From: Nanobdellota archaeon
GTDB taxonomy: Archaea; Nanobdellota; Nanobdellia; Woesearchaeales; UBA12501
Length of the DNA: 10,879 nucleotides
Direction: 5' to 3'
Assembly (NCBI GenBank): GCA_018812465.1
Contig: JAHJCS010000273.1
Span: 1-10,879 of the forward strand
In this document: one piece after another, positions 192 through 10,842 of the stretch
How positions within the stretch are numbered: position 1 is the first letter of the stretch
How the letters are laid out: each line of letters opens with the position of its first letter
The notes under the pieces: generated by a model
The model's database searches: none
Told to the model about the DNA's origin: nothing
What the model saw: only the letters and a program-made list of their open reading frames with translations
Translations under genes and position numbers: made by a program

Positions 192-563
192 ATGAAGAAG
201 AAGATACTTGTTGTTGATGATGAGCCAGATAACAGGACAACTGCAAAGGCTTTGCTTGAGAAAGAAGGATATTCTGTGACCACTGCAATAAGCGGTGATG
301 ACTGCCTTGAGAAGCTGAAGAAAGAGAAGCCTGACCTTATTCTCATGGATATCATGATGCCAGGCACTCCTGTAAGGCAGGTTGTTGAGAAGATCAAGAA
401 CATCAAGATCGCATATCTGAGTGTTGTGAGGACTTCTGAGGCAGAGAAAGAGGAGCTTCTGAGCCCGAAGAACATTGTGGGATTCATCCAGAAGCCATTT
501 GATATAACTGAACTCCTGGCTCAGGTAAAAAATTTCCTAAAACAAGATAAGGAAATAAAATAA
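192..563 (+). CDS. Receiver-only response regulator (CheY-like), first in cluster
   Basis: This is a single phosphoacceptor (REC) domain of 123 residues with no output domain. It should take a phosphoryl group from a histidine kinase in the cytoplasm and signal by contact with another protein. The acidic pocket is D9, D10 and E11; the phosphoacceptor is D53 in LILMDIMMPG; S77 is in the switch position; and K101-P102 form the conserved KPF. The region after D53 (MMPGTPVRQVVEKIK) and the stretch LSVVRTSEAEKEELL give it an archaeal look and set it apart from the two regulators at the other end of the cluster. The start follows a GGGGTG ribosome-binding site at 180-185 with six bases of spacing. 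The next gene, a histidine kinase, begins 77 bases downstream and is the likely partner. The receiver assignment is secure; the downstream target is unknown. Confidence 0.93.
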   Translation: MKKKILVVDDEPDNRTTAKALLEKEGYSVTTAISGDDCLEKLKKEKPDLILMDIMMPGTPVRQVVEKIKNIKIAYLSVVRTSEAEKEELLSPKNIVGFIQKPFDITELLAQVKNFLKQDKEIK

Positions 564-640: not shown

Positions 641-2593
641 ATGGAGAAGAAAAGAGAGCCTGCAGATATATCTTTCTTCAGCAGGCTGTCCACCAAGATG
701 ATATTATACTCTCTTACCCTGTTTGTTCTGCTGTTGATATTGGTCCTGTCATCATTATCCCTCTTGTCCACCACAAGCAAAGGCTTCCTGACACAGGCAG
801 AGTTCCTTGGCAACACCTCTATTCAGTATAGTATTGAGGGTCTGAAATCCCAGGCTGAGGACAATATCAAGGATAAATCTATGCATTCTGCTGATATGCT
901 GCGTGATTTCCTGGATGATAATCCTGGAATGACTATCCAAGAGCTTGAGAATGATGAGCACATGAAACGAGTGGCAATTGTTTCTGTAGGAAAGACAGGA
1001 TATACTGCAGTGCATGACACTAAAGGAATAAATCATTTCCATGTCAATCCAGCTCTTGTAGGCTCTGATCTTCATGACCTTGCTGAAAGGTTCCCTAGTT
1101 TCTGGGTTATCCTGGAGAAAAGCCTGACAGAAGATGCTGAGGGTTATTATGATTGGGAAGATGCTGATGGAAATATCAGGCAGAAGTATATGTATTGTGC
1201 GCATGTCAGAGATTCTGACCTTATAACCTGCGCCACAACCTATATTGACGAGTTCTTCGGACCTCTAAATGCTGCTGAAGAGTCAATAAGATCCTCTGTT
1301 TCACAATCAAAAGAGCAGATCAATAGTTCATTAAGGACTGCAAGCCTATTTATCATTGTATTATCCATACTGGTATTGATATTCTTCTTGTATATCATCT
1401 CCATATTAAACAAAAAAGTTGTAGATCCTATCAACAAGCTCAGGTCTGCTACAGAAGAGATACAGAAAGGAGATTTCAGTGTTAGGGTTGATATCCATAC
1501 TGGAGGAGAGATTCAGGAGCTTGGCGAGAGCTTCAACAGGACAATAGATGCTCTGCAAGAGCTTGATGATGAACGGCTGCAGCTTGACAAGGCAAAGACA
1601 GAATTCCTCTCAATCACAAGCCATGAGCTGAGAAGCCCTATGACTCCAATGAAAGCCCAGATGCAGATGCTCCTGAAAGGCTATTATGGAAAGCTCAATC
1701 AGAAGCAGAAAGATGCGCTTGATATTGTGCTCAGGAACACAGATAGGCTTGACAGCATAATTGTTGATCTTCTTGAGGTGTCAAGGATTGAGGCAGGCAG
1801 GCTCAAGTTCAGGTTTGTCAAGACAGACCTGACTGATACTATAAAGAGGCTTGTTGAGGAGATGAAGGGCTTCATGCCTGAGAAGAAAATCCAGTTGATG
1901 CTTGAGATAGGCAAGCTGCCTGTGATTGAGGTTGATCCAGACAGGGTCATGCAGGTCCTGAGGAACCTCATAAATAATGCAATAAAGTTCTCCCCTGCAA
2001 AAAGCAAGATTCACATAAACATATCTTCTGATAATAAAGAGATATTTTTCAGTGTCAAGGACACTGGAATAGGCATGGGCCTAAAAGATGTGAGAGGTGT
2101 GTTTGAGCCTTTCTATCAGGTTGAGCATACCCTTAGCAGGAAAGTTGGAGGAACAGGGCTTGGACTGACAATCTGCAAAGGAATAATTGAGTCTCAGAAA
2201 GGAAGGATCTGGGCTGAAAGCACCCTGAACAAGGGCACAACATTCTATTTCACAGTGCCTTTGACGCCTGTCAAAGAGATTAAGCCACTGAAGCTCATGT
2301 TCTCAGGAAGAGGAGTGACAGACCAGAAGATCATGGAACTGTTCAGGGAAAGGCTGGGTCCTGTTGGTCTGAATGAGTTCAATGATATCAAAGAGAAGAC
2401 AGAGCTGACACCTGAGTCATTATCAGGTTATATTGACACACTGGTCAGCCAGGGAGTTGTCTCTAAAGAAGAATCGGTTGCGCTCAAGAAGAGCATAACC
2501 CTCATATTTGAGGGGGCTGTCGGAGAAAAGGAAGGCAGCGTTAAGAAACCAAATGGTTTTGAGGAGCAGATGGACAGTTTCTTCAGAGACTGA
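641..2593 (+). CDS. Membrane histidine kinase: Cache sensor, HAMP, HisKA, HATPase, extra C-terminal domain
   Basis: This 650-residue sensor kinase should detect a small ligand outside the membrane and autophosphorylate on histidine. Segments: TM1 about 22-45; extracytoplasmic Cache-like domain about 46-233 (GKTGYTAVHD at 118-126 and YDWEDADG followed by KYMY are typical of a widespread Cache type); TM2 about 234-255; HAMP about 256-308 (P263, E290). HisKA follows with phospho-histidine H328 in SHELRSP, then the ATPase core with N-box N446, DTGIG at 474-478, FEPF at 488-491 and GGTGLGL at 503-509. All key residues are present, so the kinase looks active. Residues about 543-650 lie beyond the ATPase and form an unrecognised, mostly helical tail. 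GAGG at 631-634, six bases before ATG, supports the start. The first regulator upstream is the natural partner. Confidence 0.93.
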   Translation: MEKKREPADISFFSRLSTKMILYSLTLFVLLLILVLSSLSLLSTTSKGFLTQAEFLGNTSIQYSIEGLKSQAEDNIKDKSMHSADMLRDFLDDNPGMTIQELENDEHMKRVAIVSVGKTGYTAVHDTKGINHFHVNPALVGSDLHDLAERFPSFWVILEKSLTEDAEGYYDWEDADGNIRQKYMYCAHVRDSDLITCATTYIDEFFGPLNAAEESIRSSVSQSKEQINSSLRTASLFIIVLSILVLIFFLYIISILNKKVVDPINKLRSATEEIQKGDFSVRVDIHTGGEIQELGESFNRTIDALQELDDERLQLDKAKTEFLSITSHELRSPMTPMKAQMQMLLKGYYGKLNQKQKDALDIVLRNTDRLDSIIVDLLEVSRIEAGRLKFRFVKTDLTDTIKRLVEEMKGFMPEKKIQLMLEIGKLPVIEVDPDRVMQVLRNLINNAIKFSPAKSKIHINISSDNKEIFFSVKDTGIGMGLKDVRGVFEPFYQVEHTLSRKVGGTGLGLTICKGIIESQKGRIWAESTLNKGTTFYFTVPLTPVKEIKPLKLMFSGRGVTDQKIMELFRERLGPVGLNEFNDIKEKTELTPESLSGYIDTLVSQGVVSKEESVALKKSITLIFEGAVGEKEGSVKKPNGFEEQMDSFFRD

Positions 2594-2683: not shown

Positions 2684-4348
2684 ATGAAACCAATAAAAAT
2701 ACAGACAATGATGATAATTGCCCTGATTCTAATAGGTTTGTCTGCTTCTGTTGGAGGCTCATATTATTTTTATCTCAATTCAGAGAAAAGGCTTATTGCA
2801 TCAGAGCACTCTCTTCTTGAGGCAGTCTCTCACTCAAGGGAGAATCATCTGCAAAGCTATATCCAGTATAATCTTGATGAACTGAGAATCATCTCAAGCA
2901 GGGTTCAGACTAAGACAATCCTTGAGAACTATTACAAAGATCCTAATAATGAGGATCTGGCATTGCTGCATAGAATCTTGTCTGATCCTGTGAGCCAGAT
3001 AAAAAATTATGAGTCCATATCTATCCTAAGCATTGATGGAAATATATTAGTGTCTAGCCAGGAAGGCGCTGCATCTTTTCTTGATGTCAATAAATTATTT
3101 GAAGAAGCAAGGGATAAAGAGATGATATCTGTGCTGCCAGGAACTGATGGACTTCCCAGAATAATCCTGGCAGGACCTATCTCTAATGATGATGAGTTCC
3201 TTGGGGTGCTTGTGATTGTGTCTGATACTAGTGGAATCTCATTTATAACCAGCGACACTGCAGGATTAGGAGAGACCGGAGAAGTGTACATCATAGATGA
3301 AGATTATAATATGATCACTCCATCAAGGTTCATCACTGAGGGTTTCTATGATATTGTGGTCAATACAACCAATTCCCAGAACTGCTTTATGCATAAATTG
3401 CTTTCTGAGGAAGAGACTAAGAGAAGGCATCAAGAAATAAGCTTGTTTGATGATTATGGGGGTGTGCCTGTCCTGGGAACCCATGCTTATCTGCCTGAGA
3501 CTGGATGGTGTCTTCTGGCAGAGATTAACTATGAAGAGACTATTGGCTCTGGAAGACGGGAGATCTTTTTTAATTCTGTCTGGATGGTATCTATACTACT
3601 TATATTTGTCATAATAATGGCTTTGCTGATATCAAGATGGATCTCTGTCCCAATCTCAAGGCTTTCATCAGCTGTCGAAGAGATAACCAAAGGTAATTTT
3701 AAAGTTGATCTAAAACAGAGCAGCATCTATGAGATACAGAATTTAACAGAATCCCTGAACCGGATACTCGCAAGCCTCAAGCTTGCTGTTCTGAAGGTAG
3801 GGATAAAGAAGAGTGATATAGGTCTTGGAGAGGCTCTTAAAGCAAAAGAAGAGGCTGAAAAGAGATACAAGGACCTGTTTGATGCAGCAGTTGATGCAAT
3901 ACTCACAATAGACAAGACAGGCAAGATAACAAACATCAATAAGGCTGCCCAGAAGGTCAGCGGATACGACTTCGATGAGATTGTAGGCCATAATATCGCA
4001 ACTATAAAACTGCTTACACTTGCGAGCAAGCTTAAAGCCGTCAAATCATTCAAGAACAGGATTAGCGGCATAGAATCGCCTCCTTATGAGATTGAGATAA
4101 TCAGGAAAGACGGCTCGATAATGCCTGCTGAGGTGAATGCATCAGCTATAAAGGACAATCAGGGCATTGTCACAGGAACTCTTGCGATCATCAGGGATAT
4201 CTCAGACAGGAAGAAAGCAGAGACTCAGATCTCAAAGAAGAGCCAGGATCTTGAGAGATTCGCAAAGCTCTCAGTCGGAAGAGAAGAAAAGATGATAGAT
4301 CTCAAGAAGAAGATAAAAGAGATGGAGGCAAAGCTTAAGAAGAAATAA
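2684..4348 (+). CDS. Membrane sensor without kinase: double-Cache-like, HAMP, PAS, coiled coil
   Basis: This 554-residue protein has the input half of a sensor kinase but no HisKA or ATPase domain. Segments: TM1 about 7-30; extracytoplasmic domain about 36-293 of dCache size (ISILSIDGNILVSS and GETGEVYIIDED are typical strands); TM2 about 296-317; HAMP about 318-370 (P323, E350); PAS about 393-512 ending RDISDRKKAE; then a charged helix. The tail holds LERFAKLSVGREEKMIDLKK (from 523), a conserved linker often seen in PAS kinases between a PAS domain and the next module. The C-terminus therefore looks like a natural linker, not random truncation. The start has GAGG at 2675-2678. The stop TAA is one base before the next ATG, so the two proteins are probably translationally coupled. 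It is likely an input subunit for a separately encoded kinase, which is inference. Confidence 0.88.
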   Translation: MKPIKIQTMMIIALILIGLSASVGGSYYFYLNSEKRLIASEHSLLEAVSHSRENHLQSYIQYNLDELRIISSRVQTKTILENYYKDPNNEDLALLHRILSDPVSQIKNYESISILSIDGNILVSSQEGAASFLDVNKLFEEARDKEMISVLPGTDGLPRIILAGPISNDDEFLGVLVIVSDTSGISFITSDTAGLGETGEVYIIDEDYNMITPSRFITEGFYDIVVNTTNSQNCFMHKLLSEEETKRRHQEISLFDDYGGVPVLGTHAYLPETGWCLLAEINYEETIGSGRREIFFNSVWMVSILLIFVIIMALLISRWISVPISRLSSAVEEITKGNFKVDLKQSSIYEIQNLTESLNRILASLKLAVLKVGIKKSDIGLGEALKAKEEAEKRYKDLFDAAVDAILTIDKTGKITNINKAAQKVSGYDFDEIVGHNIATIKLLTLASKLKAVKSFKNRISGIESPPYEIEIIRKDGSIMPAEVNASAIKDNQGIVTGTLAIIRDISDRKKAETQISKKSQDLERFAKLSVGREEKMIDLKKKIKEMEAKLKKK

Positions 4349-4349
4349 A

Positions 4350-6305
4350 ATGCCAGAAGAAGAGATAAAACAGGAAGCTCTCCTCAACATGCTTGAGGAT
4401 CTTGAGGAGACAAAGAAGAAGCTTGAAGAGAGCCAGAGGCTTTACAGGCTGATAACTGACAATGCAACAGATCATATTGCTCTGATGAAGCTTGACACTA
4501 CTTATGTCTATCTTAATGCTGCAAACCAGCAGCTTGGCTATAAACCAGGAGAGCTTGTAGGAAAGAAAGGAATTGATTTTGTGCATCCTGATGACAGGAA
4601 GAAGTTAGTGCCTATTCTCATGAAATACTCTGTTAACCTTATCTCAAATCTCCTGAAAAGACAAAAGAATGTGTATGAAAAATTCCAGTACAGGTTCCCT
4701 GACAAGTCAGGCAAGTGGCATGACATGGAAGGAATAGCAACACCTGTGCCAAGCCCTGATGGAAAAGGATACAATATCCTGCTTGTTTCAAGGGATATTA
4801 CAGAGAGAAATAAATCGGAGGGGGTCAGGAGAGAGGAACAGGCAAGGTTCAAAGGCCTTTTTGACAACATGAGCTCTGGTGTAGCTGTGTATGAACCAGT
4901 TAATAACTGCAATGATTTCATATTCAAGGACTTGAACCTATCAGGAGAGATTATTGATGGGATAAAAAAGAAGGATGTGGTCGGAAAGAACTTATTATCT
5001 GTATTTCCTGGAGCTAAAGAATTTGGTATTCTTGGTGCAATGAGAAAAGTATGTAAAACAGGAGAATCCCAGCACCTGCCCATCAACAAATATACAGACC
5101 CACGTATCAAAGGATGGAGAGAGAATTTTCTATTCAAGCTTCCAACAGGAGAGGTAGTCGCTGTGTATAATGATGTGACAGAGAAGATGGAGACTCAGGA
5201 AGAGCTGCAGAAACTGGCTGCTATCCCAAAATACACCACTGAGCTCATAAATATAGCAGATCTGAAAGGGCAGATGATATTTCTCAATAATGCTGGAAGC
5301 AGGATGCTTGGCATCTCTTCAAAAGATGTAAATAATCACAATATTCTTGAGGTCATTCCAGACCCTCTTAAGGACATTGTAAAAAAAGAGCTTCTGCCTG
5401 CATTGATGAACAGAAAGACCTGGGAAGGTGACCTGCAGTACAAGAACATCAAGACAGGAAAGCTGACTGATGTGCATTCAATCACTTTCACAATAAAGGA
5501 CCAAAAGACAGGCAAGCCTTTGTATCTTGCCAATGTATCAAGGGATATCACAGAGAAGAAGAAAGCAGAGCAGGAGATAAAGGACTCTGAAGAGCGCTTC
5601 AGAATAGCTTTTGATTATGCCCCAATAGGATATTATATCTCAGATTCAAAAGGCGCTTTTATTGAAGGAAACAAGAAAGCAGAAGAGATAATAGGCTATA
5701 AAAGAAAGGACCTGTTAGGAAAGAATTATTTTGATGTTGGCCTGATATCCAAAGAATCACTGCCTCTGGCAGCAAAGATCCTTGCGAAGAATGTCATGGG
5801 CAAGGCAACCGGCCCTGATGAGTTTGTTCTCAACAGAAAAGATGGCAAGAAGATAATCCTTGAGGTGTGGACCTATCCTATCAAGATGAAAGGAAACAGG
5901 GTTGTTCTGGGCATTGTCAATGATATCACAGAGAAAAAGATGGTAGAAGGGCAGATCAAAGAGAAAGACCTGCTTTTCAAAGACATATCGGACAAAAGTT
6001 TTGATATTGTTTATATCCTTGATAGAACAGGCAAGGTTACTTATGTTAATAATGCCATAAGAAATATTCTGGGTTATAATCCTAAGGAAGTTATTGGCAT
6101 TAATTTTAAGTCAATAGTATCCAAAAGTGAGTTTCCAAGCATGAAGAATGTCTTTATCTCTATACTCAAAGGCAAAAGCGTCAAGTCTATCAGGACAAAG
6201 CTCAAAAACAATAAAGGCAAAGAAGTTGATATACTCTTCAATTCATCCCCCTTAATCAAAGAGGGAAAGATAATCGGTACATATGGAATCATTAGAAAGG
6301 CTTAA
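4350..6305 (+). CDS. Soluble five-PAS protein without kinase domain
   Basis: The 651 residues contain five PAS domains and nothing else: about 27-155, 164-283, 287-406, 413-531 and 541-650. Four end in the usual (D)(I/V)TE linker (SRDITERNKSE, NDVTEKMETQ, SRDITEKKKAE, NDITEKKMVE). The fifth stops abruptly at GIIRKA. The second PAS (VIGK/VVGK then VFPG, WRENF, KLPTGEVVAVY) belongs to a recognisable PAS subtype. No membrane segment or signal peptide is seen. The N-terminus, with ALLNMLEDLEETKKKLE at 10-26, resembles a linker helix normally found inside PAS kinases, continuing the linker at the end of the preceding gene. There is no convincing ribosome-binding site; ATG follows the upstream stop as TAA-A-ATG, so translation probably depends on re-initiation. 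Its likely role is a signal-sensing adaptor between the membrane sensor and the eight-PAS kinase. Ligands are not predictable, and no LOV cysteine motif is seen. Confidence 0.87.
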   Translation: MPEEEIKQEALLNMLEDLEETKKKLEESQRLYRLITDNATDHIALMKLDTTYVYLNAANQQLGYKPGELVGKKGIDFVHPDDRKKLVPILMKYSVNLISNLLKRQKNVYEKFQYRFPDKSGKWHDMEGIATPVPSPDGKGYNILLVSRDITERNKSEGVRREEQARFKGLFDNMSSGVAVYEPVNNCNDFIFKDLNLSGEIIDGIKKKDVVGKNLLSVFPGAKEFGILGAMRKVCKTGESQHLPINKYTDPRIKGWRENFLFKLPTGEVVAVYNDVTEKMETQEELQKLAAIPKYTTELINIADLKGQMIFLNNAGSRMLGISSKDVNNHNILEVIPDPLKDIVKKELLPALMNRKTWEGDLQYKNIKTGKLTDVHSITFTIKDQKTGKPLYLANVSRDITEKKKAEQEIKDSEERFRIAFDYAPIGYYISDSKGAFIEGNKKAEEIIGYKRKDLLGKNYFDVGLISKESLPLAAKILAKNVMGKATGPDEFVLNRKDGKKIILEVWTYPIKMKGNRVVLGIVNDITEKKMVEGQIKEKDLLFKDISDKSFDIVYILDRTGKVTYVNNAIRNILGYNPKEVIGINFKSIVSKSEFPSMKNVFISILKGKSVKSIRTKLKNNKGKEVDILFNSSPLIKEGKIIGTYGIIRKA

Positions 6306-6313
6306 TCTAAAAA

Positions 6314-9300
6314 ATGCCAGACCAAAAATTCCGTGAGATCCTGGACCGCCTGCCTGAGGGTGTCTCTGTTATAGATAAGGATATGCGGATTCTGTGGGTG
6401 AACAAGGCCCTGAGAGACAAGGGATTTGACATTGAGGGATGCAAGGGCAGGCATTGCCATATTGTGTACAAGCAGAACAATGAGGTCTGCAAGGGCTGTC
6501 CTGCTGTTGAGGTGTTCAGGACAGGCAAGGAAGTGAGGGTCACAGAGAAAGGCGCTGATGGAAAGGAGTATGAAGTGACTGCTCTTCCTGTCAAGGAATC
6601 AGGTGAGGTTGCAAGGGTCATTGAGATTGTCAGAGAATCCCAAAAGGAAGATATAGAAGAGAGAGCAGCCAGGCTGAGCAATGTAAAATGCCAGTCTTTC
6701 ATAGAGAATGCAGAAGATATAATATTCATGATGAATAAAGAATGCAGGGTTGTATCTTTAAACCAGAAAGCTGCGCATTCTCTTGGAAGAAATGCTGAAG
6801 AGATAATGGGAAAGACTATGCACGAGCTCTTTCCGCCAAAGATTGCAGAGAGACAGTGCGCTAATGTGCTGAAAGTGTTCAGGACTGGAGAATCATCCTC
6901 CTATATCAGAGTGTCAGAGATGTGCAGGAAAGTTGCCTGGCTTAACACCTCCCTGAATCCTGTAAAAGACATTCATGGCAATATTGAGGCTGTGCTGGGC
7001 ATATCAAGGGACATAACAGAACAGAAAAGAGCAGAAGAATCGCTTAAAGAGAGCGAGGAAAAGCTTAGAATAGCAACCGAGAACATAACTGAAGCTTTCT
7101 TTGCAAAGGATATCAACAGAAAATACATGATCATCAATACTGCTGCTGCCAGGATGGTGGGTCTGCCTGCTGCCAAGATCATCGGAAAGACAGCTGAACA
7201 GATATTCTCAAAGAAGGATGCAAAGACAATCAGGAAAGTCGATGAGATGAACTTAAGCGGCCAGAAAATTGACCGAGTAGAGACTGTATTTTTTAGGGGT
7301 CAGGAACGCTTTCTTCATACAATCCAGAATCCTTTGAAAGACAGAGATGGGAAGATTATAGGGATAGTAGGGACTGTCACAGACATCACTGAAGAGAGAA
7401 AAGCAGAGCAGGCTCTGATGGCAGAAAAACAATGGTCAGAGACACTCTTGCAGTCAGCGCCCAGCATAATGATATGTCTTGGAGAGAAGTCAAAGATCCT
7501 TCTGTTCAACAAGGCTGCAGAGAAGATAACCGGATACAATGCAGAAGATGTCATGGGAAAGAGTTGGATTGATTTGTTCATCCCAAAAAAGCAGAGAAAA
7601 GAGCTTTATGGGGTATGGGAAAAGATAGTAAAAGGAAAGCTGACTCTCCACAATTACGAGAATCCTATAATCACAAAAAAAGGGGAAGAGAAGCTGATCT
7701 ATTGGAACAACACGTTCCTTTCACAGAATCATAAATTCAGGATGGTGTTCTCAATCGGCCAGGATGTGACTGAGAAGAGGTGGGCAGAGAAGGCCCTGAA
7801 AGCGTCTGAAAACCGCTACAGGCGTCTTTTTGAGAGTGCTAAGGATGCTATCCTGATTGTGGATGTGGATTCTGGCCAGATTGTTGATGCCAATCCTTTT
7901 GTGCAGGATCTTCTGGGCTATTCCCATAAGGAATTCCTTGGCAAGAAGCTTTGGGAGATAGGCTTTTTGAAGGATATTGTCGCGAACAAGAAAAATTTCA
8001 GGGAATTGCAGAAGAAAAAGTATATTCATTATGAGGATCTTCCTTTGGAGACAAAGTCAGGCAAGGAAATCCATGTTGAGTTTGTGAGCAATGTGTATCC
8101 TATCAATGGAAAGAGTGTCATCCAGTGCAATATCAGGGACATAACAGAAAGGCATGCTGCAGAGAAAGCATTGATGCAGAGCGAGCAGAAATACCGTTCT
8201 TTTGTAGAGAACTTCCAGGGCATTGCGTATAATGCATATACAAATGGAATACCTATATTCTTTCACGGTGCTGTTAAAAGAATAACTGGCTATACTGAAA
8301 AAGACTTTAAAAAAGGAAAACCTAGATGGGACCAGATCATCCTTAAAGAAGACTTCAAAAAGATTCAGAAGAGCTGGAAAGACCTGGCAACCAAACCAGA
8401 TTATTCTACCTCACGAGAATACCGGATATTAACCAAAGACAAGAAGATAAGATGGATACATGAACTTATCAGGAATACCTGCGATGAATCAGGAAAGCTT
8501 AAGCTTCTGCAGGGAACTTTATATGACATAACTGACCAGAAGAGGGCAGATGAGAAGATAAAAGAATCAAGGAACATGCTCAGGCTTGTGTTTGACACAA
8601 TCCCTGTCAGGGTCTTCTGGAAGGACAGGAACCTAAATTATCTCGGATGCAACAAGCTCTTTGCAAAGGATGCTGGAGTGAAAGAGCCGAAAGACCTGAT
8701 AGGCAAGGATGACTACCAGATGGGATGGAAAGAACAGGCAGATATATACAGGGCAGATGACCGGGCTGTCATCTCAACTGGCAAGGAGAAGCTGAATTAT
8801 GAAGAGCCTCAGACAACTCCATCTGGAGAAAAAATATGGCTGAGGACAAGCAAGAGGCCTCTTAAGGATCCAAAAGGAGATATAATCGGGATGCTTGGCG
8901 TATATGAGGATATCACAGAGAAGAAGAAGGCAGAGCAGGCCCTAAAAGAGAGCGAGGAAAGGTACAGGAACATATTCAGTTCTGCGAATGATATAATCTT
9001 CCTGATCAACAAGAAAGGAGTCATCATTGATGCCAATAAACGTCTTAAAGAGATCGCAGGATACAGCAGAGAAGAGATTCTAGGAAAGTCAATATCTCAG
9101 CTCAGGAAGATCATGCCTCTGTCAAGCATCGCTACCCTGCTAAAGAATTTCATGAAGAGGATAGTCGGAATTGATATGCCTCCTTATGAAGTGCAGCTGC
9201 GCACAAAATCAGGAGAACTCAGGGATTTTGAGATCAATGCAGTTGCTTTAAGATCTGGAAAGAATATCACCGGAGACCTGGCAATACTGAGGGATACTAC

Positions 9301-10033
9301 TGAAAGAAATAGGTCAAGAATAGATCTTCAGAAAGCCTATGAAAGCCTTAAAGAGGTTGACAAGCTCAAATCATCTATCATCCGGGACACTACCCATGAG
9401 TTCAAGAATCCTATATCCAAGATAAAGATGATATCCAGCCTTATGAATGAAGAGCTGGCAAAGACCAAGCCTGACAAGAAACGAGTCAGTTATTATCTTG
9501 ATATCATAAGAATCAATTCAGACAGGTTCCTCAAGGAGATAACAAATGTGCTCCAGCTGAGCAGGCTGCAGTCAATGGAACACCTGGAGAAAGAGAAGAT
9601 AGATATCTGTTCAATAGGCCATAGCGTGCTTGATGAGCTTAATCTGGATATAAAATCAAAAGGCCTCAAGCTGAGGCTGAATGTCTCAAAAAGAAATTAT
9701 CTTATAGGGAATAAGGAGTTCATAAGGAGCCTTATAAGGAATCTTGTAGAGAATGCCATAAAGTTCACTGACAAAGGATATATAGATATAACCTGCAAGA
9801 CTGCAGGAAAGGACCTGATCATCTCAGTAGCAGACACAGGCAAAGGAATAAGCAAAAAAAATATAAGCACACTCTTCCAACCATTCACTCAGGCAGACCC
9901 CAGTATGTCTGGTGTCGGAATCGGGCTCTCAATCTGCAAGAAGATTGTTGAGCTCCATAATGGGAAGATTGATGTTGAATCAAAGCTTGGCAAGGGCACG
10001 AAATTCACTGTGACCCTTCCGATAAAAGGGTGA
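6314..10033 (+). CDS. Soluble hybrid-free histidine kinase with eight PAS domains
   Basis: This is a 1239-residue cytoplasmic sensor kinase with no membrane segment. PAS domains lie at about 4-107, 125-238, 246-362, 372-490, 499-613, 624-742, 751-870 and 881-998, mostly joined by DITE(+)KxAE linkers. The HisKA domain has phospho-histidine H1028 in THEFKNP. The ATPase has N-box N1143/N1147, DTGKG at 1174-1178, FQPF at 1188-1191 and GVGIGL at 1200-1205, so catalysis should be intact. There is no receiver or HPt domain. PAS1 is unusual in carrying C43, C48, C59 and C62 (ending CKGCP), which suggests metal or redox sensing. The gene starts eight bases after the five-PAS gene with only a weak AAAGG upstream, and its stop overlaps the ribosome-binding site of a receiver, the likely phosphoacceptor. 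It is the only kinase core among three adjacent PAS genes. Confidence 0.93.
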   Translation: MPDQKFREILDRLPEGVSVIDKDMRILWVNKALRDKGFDIEGCKGRHCHIVYKQNNEVCKGCPAVEVFRTGKEVRVTEKGADGKEYEVTALPVKESGEVARVIEIVRESQKEDIEERAARLSNVKCQSFIENAEDIIFMMNKECRVVSLNQKAAHSLGRNAEEIMGKTMHELFPPKIAERQCANVLKVFRTGESSSYIRVSEMCRKVAWLNTSLNPVKDIHGNIEAVLGISRDITEQKRAEESLKESEEKLRIATENITEAFFAKDINRKYMIINTAAARMVGLPAAKIIGKTAEQIFSKKDAKTIRKVDEMNLSGQKIDRVETVFFRGQERFLHTIQNPLKDRDGKIIGIVGTVTDITEERKAEQALMAEKQWSETLLQSAPSIMICLGEKSKILLFNKAAEKITGYNAEDVMGKSWIDLFIPKKQRKELYGVWEKIVKGKLTLHNYENPIITKKGEEKLIYWNNTFLSQNHKFRMVFSIGQDVTEKRWAEKALKASENRYRRLFESAKDAILIVDVDSGQIVDANPFVQDLLGYSHKEFLGKKLWEIGFLKDIVANKKNFRELQKKKYIHYEDLPLETKSGKEIHVEFVSNVYPINGKSVIQCNIRDITERHAAEKALMQSEQKYRSFVENFQGIAYNAYTNGIPIFFHGAVKRITGYTEKDFKKGKPRWDQIILKEDFKKIQKSWKDLATKPDYSTSREYRILTKDKKIRWIHELIRNTCDESGKLKLLQGTLYDITDQKRADEKIKESRNMLRLVFDTIPVRVFWKDRNLNYLGCNKLFAKDAGVKEPKDLIGKDDYQMGWKEQADIYRADDRAVISTGKEKLNYEEPQTTPSGEKIWLRTSKRPLKDPKGDIIGMLGVYEDITEKKKAEQALKESEERYRNIFSSANDIIFLINKKGVIIDANKRLKEIAGYSREEILGKSISQLRKIMPLSSIATLLKNFMKRIVGIDMPPYEVQLRTKSGELRDFEINAVALRSGKNITGDLAILRDTTERNRSRIDLQKAYESLKEVDKLKSSIIRDTTHEFKNPISKIKMISSLMNEELAKTKPDKKRVSYYLDIIRINSDRFLKEITNVLQLSRLQSMEHLEKEKIDICSIGHSVLDELNLDIKSKGLKLRLNVSKRNYLIGNKEFIRSLIRNLVENAIKFTDKGYIDITCKTAGKDLIISVADTGKGISKKNISTLFQPFTQADPSMSGVGIGLSICKKIVELHNGKIDVESKLGKGTKFTVTLPIKG

Positions 10034-10037: not shown

Positions 10038-10397
10038 ATGAAAAAAAAGACAATTCTTGTTGTTGAGGATGATCCTGAGATGCAGAGCATCTATAAGGAG
10101 ATGCTGGAATCAGATTATGACCTTATCATAGCTGATAACTCCAGGAAAGCAAGATCATTGCTTGAGGCCAACAAAGTGGATCTGATGATCCTTGACATAA
10201 TACTTCCTGATGAGACAGGGGATTCTTTTCTTGCGCATCTCAAGAAGATGCCTCGTTTTGAGAACCTTCAGGTGCTTGCAATAACTGTCCTGGGCGACCT
10301 GACTTACGAGCTGTGCAAGATAGACCCTAAGATAATAGGCGTCGCAAAGCCTTTTGACAGAAAGAAACTGCTGAAGATAATCAAAGAGGTAATCTGA
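10038..10397 (+). CDS. Receiver-only response regulator, coupled to the eight-PAS kinase
   Basis: The 119 residues form one REC domain with no output module. The acidic pair is D11/D12 (VVEDDPE), the phosphoacceptor is D53 in LMILDIILP, the switch threonine is T83 in ITVLG, and K104-P105 is the conserved lysine-proline. It starts four bases after the kinase stop with GGTGAT directly upstream, which makes it the most likely phosphorylation target of that kinase. It is clearly paralogous to the regulator that follows: both share VEDDPE, the LMILDIILP block and the TVLG switch loop, and both differ from the regulator at the left end of the cluster. The DNA after the active-site codons is also similar (gaggatgatcctgagat in both), which suggests a local duplication. 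With no output domain it probably acts by binding a partner not seen here. Confidence 0.93.
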   Translation: MKKKTILVVEDDPEMQSIYKEMLESDYDLIIADNSRKARSLLEANKVDLMILDIILPDETGDSFLAHLKKMPRFENLQVLAITVLGDLTYELCKIDPKIIGVAKPFDRKKLLKIIKEVI

Positions 10398-10473: not shown

Positions 10474-10842
10474 ATGAAAACAAACAAGAAGAGCATTCTG
10501 ATTGTTGAGGATGATCCTGAGATAAACCGGATATATCAGGATGTCCTAGGAGACAGGTATGATCTGACAATAACTGACACTGCAAAGAAGGCAATGAACC
10601 AGATGAACAAGAAGACCTTTGATCTCATGATCCTGGATATAATACTTCCAGTAGAGAGCGGAGAGCAGTTCTATGAGCGCATCAAGGACATGAAGAAATT
10701 CAAGAATCTTAAGGTGCTTGTTGTGACTGTCTTAGGCAATGGGTGCGAGTTCTTCAGGAACATATATTCTTCAGCCAGATGCCTTCCAAAGCCTTTTGAG
10801 ATAAAAGAGCTGGTCAAGACTATCCAAAGCATGATCAGTTAA
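10474..10842 (+). CDS. Receiver-only response regulator, tandem paralogue of the previous gene
   Basis: The 122 residues form a single REC domain. Conserved positions are D13/D14 (IVEDDPE), phosphoacceptor D55 in LMILDIILP, T85 in VTVLG and K106-P107 in LPKPF. It aligns over its whole length with the preceding regulator but differs in the loop after the switch residue (GNGCEFFRNIYSSAR versus GDLTYELCKIDPK). That loop lies next to the alpha4-beta5 face, which receivers commonly use for partner contact, so the two may be read by different targets. It has its own strong ribosome-binding site. No DNA-binding or enzymatic output is present. Whether it is served by the eight-PAS kinase, the Cache kinase or both cannot be told from sequence. 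Only 37 bases follow, with no recognisable terminator. Confidence 0.93.
   Translation: MKTNKKSILIVEDDPEINRIYQDVLGDRYDLTITDTAKKAMNQMNKKTFDLMILDIILPVESGEQFYERIKDMKKFKNLKVLVVTVLGNGCEFFRNIYSSARCLPKPFEIKELVKTIQSMIS

Follow-up and report, generated by a model that had tools for sequence, protein, structure and literature searches.

The 10,879-nucleotide stretch of a Nanobdellota archaeon genome analysed here (the window; contig JAHJCS010000273.1, G000:C182 in our numbering) carries three consecutive plus-strand sensor genes, here called g1, g2, and g3, the first two of which encode sensor proteins without a kinase core. We propose that g1 and g2 are no gene fragments but act as true subunits of a multi-protein sensor complex, supplying input without a kinase core of their own, a reading that we hold at a probability of roughly one half, and that the histidine kinase encoded just upstream of g1 (HK0) is probably the older partner. 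The source genome comprises 1.35 Mb in 280 contigs and is 79% complete.

All seven genes of the window lie on the plus strand, in the order RR0, HK0, g1, g2, g3, RR1, and RR2, with gaps of 90 bases between HK0 and g1, 1 base between g1 and g2, 8 bases between g2 and g3, and 4 bases between g3 and RR1. The first-pass annotation, made from the letters alone, had described the middle three as an array of 14 PAS domains split over adjacent genes with one kinase core, and the three open reading frames (ORFs) are indeed intact, with the spacing and architectures it had assigned. Per Pfam searches, g1 (2684..4348, 554 aa) matches dCache_1, HAMP, and PAS_9 and, with its two predicted membrane spans, is arranged as TM (transmembrane)-dCache-TM-HAMP-PAS-tail; g2 (4350..6305, 651 aa) matches PAS families exclusively and is a soluble protein with a head segment followed by five PAS domains; and g3 (6314..10033, 1239 aa) matches PAS, HisKA, and HATPase_c, i.e., it is a soluble kinase with eight PAS domains and recognizable H (His1028), N, G1, and G2 boxes. 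Each of the 14 PAS domains (1 + 5 + 8) scores at least 95 bits with a PAS profile built from these same 14 domains, independent support being provided by the Pfam PAS families and NCBIfam sensory_box. The claim of one kinase core holds for the trio but not for the cluster: HK0 (641..2593, 650 aa), a Cache-HAMP-HisKA-HATPase membrane sensor kinase which the first-pass annotation overlooked together with three lone receiver genes, is a second complete kinase upstream. It matches HATPase_c (1.5e-28), HisKA (8.6e-16), HAMP (2.7e-13), and dCache_2 (4.4e-7) and has its own conserved kinase boxes. If a two-component histidine kinase is recognized by a HisKA domain with a phospho-accepting histidine plus the N and G boxes of HATPase, HK0 and g3 are such kinases and g1 and g2 are not; no HisKA was detected in g1 or g2 with Pfam at E<=0.01.

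What g1 carries in place of a kinase core is a conserved C-terminal tail (4226..4342) with the consensus ELERFxKLAVGRELKMIELKKKIKELE. This motif was found in 33 distinct segments, in all of which the GRE lies 18-45 residues from the C-terminus, and 20 of the 33 (17 of them from genomes of the order) were used to build a profile of about 40 residues that is blind to position. Searched against 352 genomes of the order, our own included, the profile gave 78 matches in 36 genomes and 28 of 220 genera, 17 of the 78 being seeds; g1, whose tail scores E 3.3e-19, is itself a seed. Two matches (G274:C28:19049 and G281:C34:41774) had no usable ORF and were dropped. The remaining 76 are all C-terminal, at most 34 codons from the stop (median 3), and none lies in an ORF with a kinase domain. 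The same C-terminal position was seen in 15 of 15 tail-bearing proteins from database searches, g1 of the window and the protein of its same-genus relative G001 among them, and the tail was absent from all 185 kinase-bearing entries compared, a count in which entries repeat where loci overlap. Of 20 genomes from the class but outside the order, one has it, at the C-terminus of a gene with five PAS domains. The protein g1 belongs to a group of sensors that we define by a C-terminal 40-residue tail, sensor domains, and no kinase. Among the 79 proteins that the g1 search found (g1 itself counted), 42 are kinase-less and 11 carry the tail, so many kinase-less sensors are tailless.

Tail genes are linked to kinase genes. 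The 36 tail-bearing genomes hold 70 HisKA matches, and 33 of the 78 tails have one within 6 kb, versus about 1.3 expected from random placing with rounded genome sizes; in 30 of these 33 cases the kinase is on the same strand and in 25 it is downstream. The gene directly after the tail gene is a kinase in 10 of 76 cases, and 9 of these 10 kinases have predicted membrane spans, 6 have a detected HAMP, and none has a detected PAS domain, by which they resemble HK0 rather than g3.

Structurally, the AlphaFold model of g1 (mean predicted local distance difference test (pLDDT) score 87, predicted template modelling (pTM) score 0.56) ends in a single predicted helix of 47 residues (507-553; block pLDDT 71-84). 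Its Cache part matches DctB and the amino-acid chemoreceptor domains of PctA, Tlp3, and Mlp24, with three integrative models (WalK-YycH, chemoreceptors) ranking above these. Beyond its anchor letters, the tail has a lysine that never varies (75 of 75) and a leucine that almost never does (73 of 75), and no solved structure matched the tail profile at E<=1. By eye the tail resembled a degenerate H-box helix of a kinase, an impression that was dropped after hhalign gave a probability of 1.6% against the DHp (dimerization and histidine phosphotransfer) domain, and the comparison with HAMP (2.5%) likewise gave no support. Tentatively, the tail could act as a docking plug of general use, its conserved helix assembling diverse kinase-less sensors (Cache-HAMP proteins, PAS arrays, membrane proteins) on a shared kinase. 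We regard the tail as the newest element of this system, regulation of a separate kinase by a kinase-less PAS protein being already known.

On the other side of the g1-g2 border, g2-type proteins begin with a conserved segment, EALLNMLEDLEE (the head; 4356..4472 in g2). The head profile gave seven strong matches in 6 of the 352 genomes, and a tail gene lies upstream in five of the seven, separated by 1 base in the window and 4 bases in G001, overlapping by 4 bases in G348 and G266, and set apart by a single gene in G041. The remaining two both belong to G056, one 172 bases off a contig edge and one behind another head gene. Ten of the 17 total matches (E 2.8e-7 to 8.4e-4, one of them within g3) and the head marks from the g1 search were excluded as weak because the second half of the head profile covers a general PAS N-cap. 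A tail end that faces a head start across a gene border is what would be expected, as far as sequence can tell, of two chains continuing one helical signal path. Being conserved, undamaged, linked to kinases, and conserved at their facing ends, g1 and g2 look as expected for separate input subunits. The first-pass annotation's proposal to that effect is thus supported in part, and the kinase that they would join need not be g3.

Which kinase this may be is best judged from the related loci. Across the same 352 genomes, the source genome among them, g1 has matches at E<=1e-20 in 17 genomes, HK0 at E<=1e-60 in 21, and g2 at E<=1e-30 in 7; a scan with g2 of named genomes gave 23 loci, with a tail in none. 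Locus L077 (G266) runs HK0-type kinase, dCache_3-HAMP-tail, head-PAS x3, KaiC ATPase, with no PAS-kinase or g3 on its 17 kb. In L044 (G348), a Cache-HAMP-PAS-tail gene overlaps a head-PAS x3 gene on a 3.3-kb contig that ends there, and the sole HisKA match of this 90% complete genome is an HK0-type kinase on a different contig. The run in G041 (L038 and L099) is longer, consisting of a PAS x3 kinase, REC genes, a small KaiC gene, an HK0-type kinase, and a ten-TM protein, followed by Cache-HAMP-PAS-tail, a 240-aa gene, head-PAS x6, two genes, and a contig-cut PAS x2 gene. Because that cut PAS gene follows g2 and a PAS-kinase lies upstream, we did not count G041 as free of g3. The pair without g3 in G266 and the HK0-type kinase as sole HisKA match in G348 make HK0 no less likely than g3 to be the partner and, though the cases are few, favour HK0-g1-g2 as the older unit; linkage best supports HK0 as the partner kinase.

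Twenty-one HK0-centred loci were tabulated from 23 HK0-type matches (half of the stretch fetched for G049:C72 is masked, and a second match in G089 is not a separate centre). Within 6 kb of HK0 there was a small KaiC-like gene in 17, a lone REC gene in 15, a kinase-less HAMP gene in 8, a kinase-less PAS gene in 6, a tail in 6, a head in 4, a KaiC ATPase in at least 4, and a second kinase in at least 3, counts that are affected by many of these loci being cut by contig ends and by the G041 PAS-kinase sitting on a neighbouring locus. The most constant neighbour is thus the small KaiC-related protein (DUF7090 in L036:1245-1781, about 175 aa). Binding proteins of the NMT1/THI5-like kind, two of which were tested, are among the other neighbours. 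In L064:7505-14557, one HK0-type kinase is followed by two kinase-less HAMP genes, i.e., several receptors and one kinase, and between the latter are two one-TM genes, of which the one tested is NMT1/THI5-like. Past the kinase core, HK0 itself carries a further conserved domain, C-terminal and about 85 residues long (residues 546-630, window 2276-2530), the profile of which matches the HK0-type kinases of L036, L038, L064, L075-L083, and L095; no Pfam family was assigned to it at E<=0.01 in the window or L077.

If g1 and g2 were instead dedicated inputs of g3, the three proteins would form a single 14-PAS chain from membrane to cytoplasm, as the first-pass annotation had it. This would agree with the near-touching genes of the trio in the window and in G001, where the order is kept, and in G041 both the soluble PAS x3 kinase (L099:3106-4953) upstream of the HK0-type kinase and the contig-cut PAS x2 gene past g2 (L038:12471-13262), possibly a piece of a kinase gene, may point the same way. 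We nevertheless find it unlikely, given the pair without a PAS-kinase in G266, the single HK0-type match in G348, and the HK0-like character of the kinases that directly follow tails.

Similarly unlikely is a role for g1 and g2 as sensors that serve a KaiC-like ATPase hub, with the kinases merely co-regulated. A KaiC ATPase gene is the next gene after the g2-type gene in L077 and the third past g3 in L036, and KaiC-like ATPase genes adjoin kinase-less HAMP/PAS genes in L037, L040, L041, L065, and L070. These neighbours fit the proposed role of KaiC-like ATPases as signalling hubs of archaea (Makarova 2017, cited in PMC5847659), and small KaiC-related genes beside the sensors of relatives add to the likeness. 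The window contig, which stops after RR2, has no KaiC-like gene, and its genome, at 79% completeness, has weak KaiC matches only (best E 3e-9). Within 4 kb of the 76 tail ORFs, a KaiC profile match is found in 17 cases, but a kinase is commoner, at 32.

The age of the gene borders bears on the last alternative. In G001 (L036) the order is an identical RR, HK, g1, g2, g3, RR, RR, with a small KaiC-related gene upstream and a KaiC-like ATPase beyond. The genes are near-touching and both trio borders are kept, at protein identities with the window of 51% for HK0, 41% for g1, 54% for g2, and 50% for g3. The first PAS domains are kept (62% identity in g2, 73% in g3), as are the inner domains g2p4 (72%), g3p4 (80%), and g3p8 (51%), while several other PAS domains of g2 and g3 have no clear counterpart in G001 and the PAS domain of g1 is missing there. 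Since the borders are conserved and the PAS content has changed, the gene borders predate much of the domain content. The retained first PAS of g3 (window 6317-6661) is cysteine-rich (GRHCHIVYKQNNEVCKGCPA), a possible metal or redox site.

That the genes are decaying pieces of a former giant kinase broken by a frameshift or stop, which the first-pass annotation offered as its alternative and which PAS domains running on across the gene borders and the existence of single-gene Cache-PAS-kinases (13 among the 79 proteins from the g1 search) might suggest, is very improbable, and rejected as a recent event, given that the split is shared with G001 (and, as regards g1 and g2, with G348, with G266, and with G041, where a single gene intervenes), that the reading frames stay open for only 11 codons ahead of g2 and 1 codon ahead of g3, and that tail and head occur in one ORF in 0 of 76 cases. 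A search for fusions, using the joined g1-g2 junction as query, retrieved one protein, P0201 (Bacteroidetes, metagenome bin; 1082 aa), matching on the head side only. In P0201, which has PAS domains and no kinase, the head stands at the N-terminus and the tail at the C-terminus; the junction itself is not fused, and the protein was rejected as a fusion. As it carries both motifs, the head and tail pair may reach beyond archaea.

Several observations weigh against our reading of g1 and g2 as inputs of a kinase complex with HK0. No HisKA match lies within 6 kb of 45 of the 78 tails, for part of which fragmentation may account, nor near any tail in 12 of the 36 tail genomes. The kinase-less HAMP/PAS genes beside KaiC-like ATPases in L037, L040, L041, and L070 have no kinase on the fetched locus. 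The soluble PAS x3 kinase upstream of HK0 in G041 fits a PAS-kinase partner too, and the full trio, sought among relatives as the first-pass annotation had suggested, was found besides the window only in G001. All seven strong head matches had themselves served to build the profile as seeds, and most of their loci had been fetched for g1 or HK0. Lastly, the periodicity of the tail near 3.5 (75 tails) is modest, with 56 of 2000 shuffles reaching it and a period of 3.0 close behind.

If g1 and g2 are nonetheless input subunits, the dCache domain of g1 would sense a small extracellular ligand and relay this signal via HAMP and a single PAS domain to the C-terminal helical tail. The soluble PAS array of g2 would contribute cytoplasmic input, its head pairing with or stacking on the tail of g1, and tail and head together would probably place both proteins on a kinase. 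The kinase complex so fed would probably have had HK0 as its older partner. In this genus, the PAS-rich g3 and two lone receivers are part of the same gene run, and g3 might give the complex a second output or even, as first thought, its main one. Output would consist of phosphotransfer to lone REC proteins and would continue by protein contacts, perhaps to nearby KaiC-like ATPases.

Parts of this scheme have known counterparts. In chemoreceptor-CheA arrays, kinase-less Cache-HAMP receptors feed a separate kinase. The protein g1 is alike in being a kinase-less Cache-HAMP receptor, but the MCP (methyl-accepting chemotaxis protein) signalling domain PF00015 is not among its Pfam matches at E<=0.01. 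In Caulobacter, the PAS protein DivL, which has no kinase activity, regulates the separate kinase CckA; as portrayed in the portion of PMC4211667 used here, DivL keeps a repurposed DHp-CA (catalytic and ATP-binding) core, unlike g1 and g2. The sections of the archaeal census (PMC5847659) that we draw on put lone REC proteins at about 40% of archaeal response regulators and hold protein contacts to be the main archaeal output mode; the likeness to our cluster lies in PAS-rich kinases and in lone REC proteins that would be expected to act by contacts. As described there, the census covers kinases and HisKA-only proteins, whereas g1 and g2 consist of Cache-HAMP and PAS arrays without HisKA. The non-enzymatic histidine kinase-like proteins of its section 7 likewise have sensor domains without HATPase, but keep a HisKA with the conserved histidine, and g1 and g2, having none, fall outside that definition. 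Among titles and abstract openings in the one library searched, we did not find this arrangement in literature on the tail sequence, archaeal kinase-less PAS proteins, Woesearchaeota signalling, or KaiC neighbourhoods.

Were g1 and g2 input subunits, these small-genome archaea would encode sensor input and kinase output separately, such that sensors could be swapped without rebuilding the kinase. This would suit genomes with few kinases (the 70 HisKA matches in 36 tail genomes) and long kinase-less PAS arrays, the longest of which in relatives has ten PAS domains. Should the tail be a docking plug, the result would be an interchangeable archaeal multi-sensor array, similar in function to chemoreceptor-CheA arrays and built from unrelated parts. 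The 40-residue tail would also be a sequence handle for finding kinase-less sensors.

The remaining genes of the window are the three lone receivers on the plus strand, RR0 (192..563, 123 aa, Response_reg E 2.5e-21), RR1 (10038..10397, 119 aa, 1.1e-16), and RR2 (10474..10842, 122 aa, 3.5e-16). No Rfam family was detected in the window at gathering score. A further group of kinase-less PAS or HAMP-PAS proteins, encoded 5' of KaiC-like ATPases at L041:2324-2899, L051:1366-2601, and L057:1330-2268, has in common a motif near the C-terminus, IRYWAANGFIQ, which is distinct from the tail.

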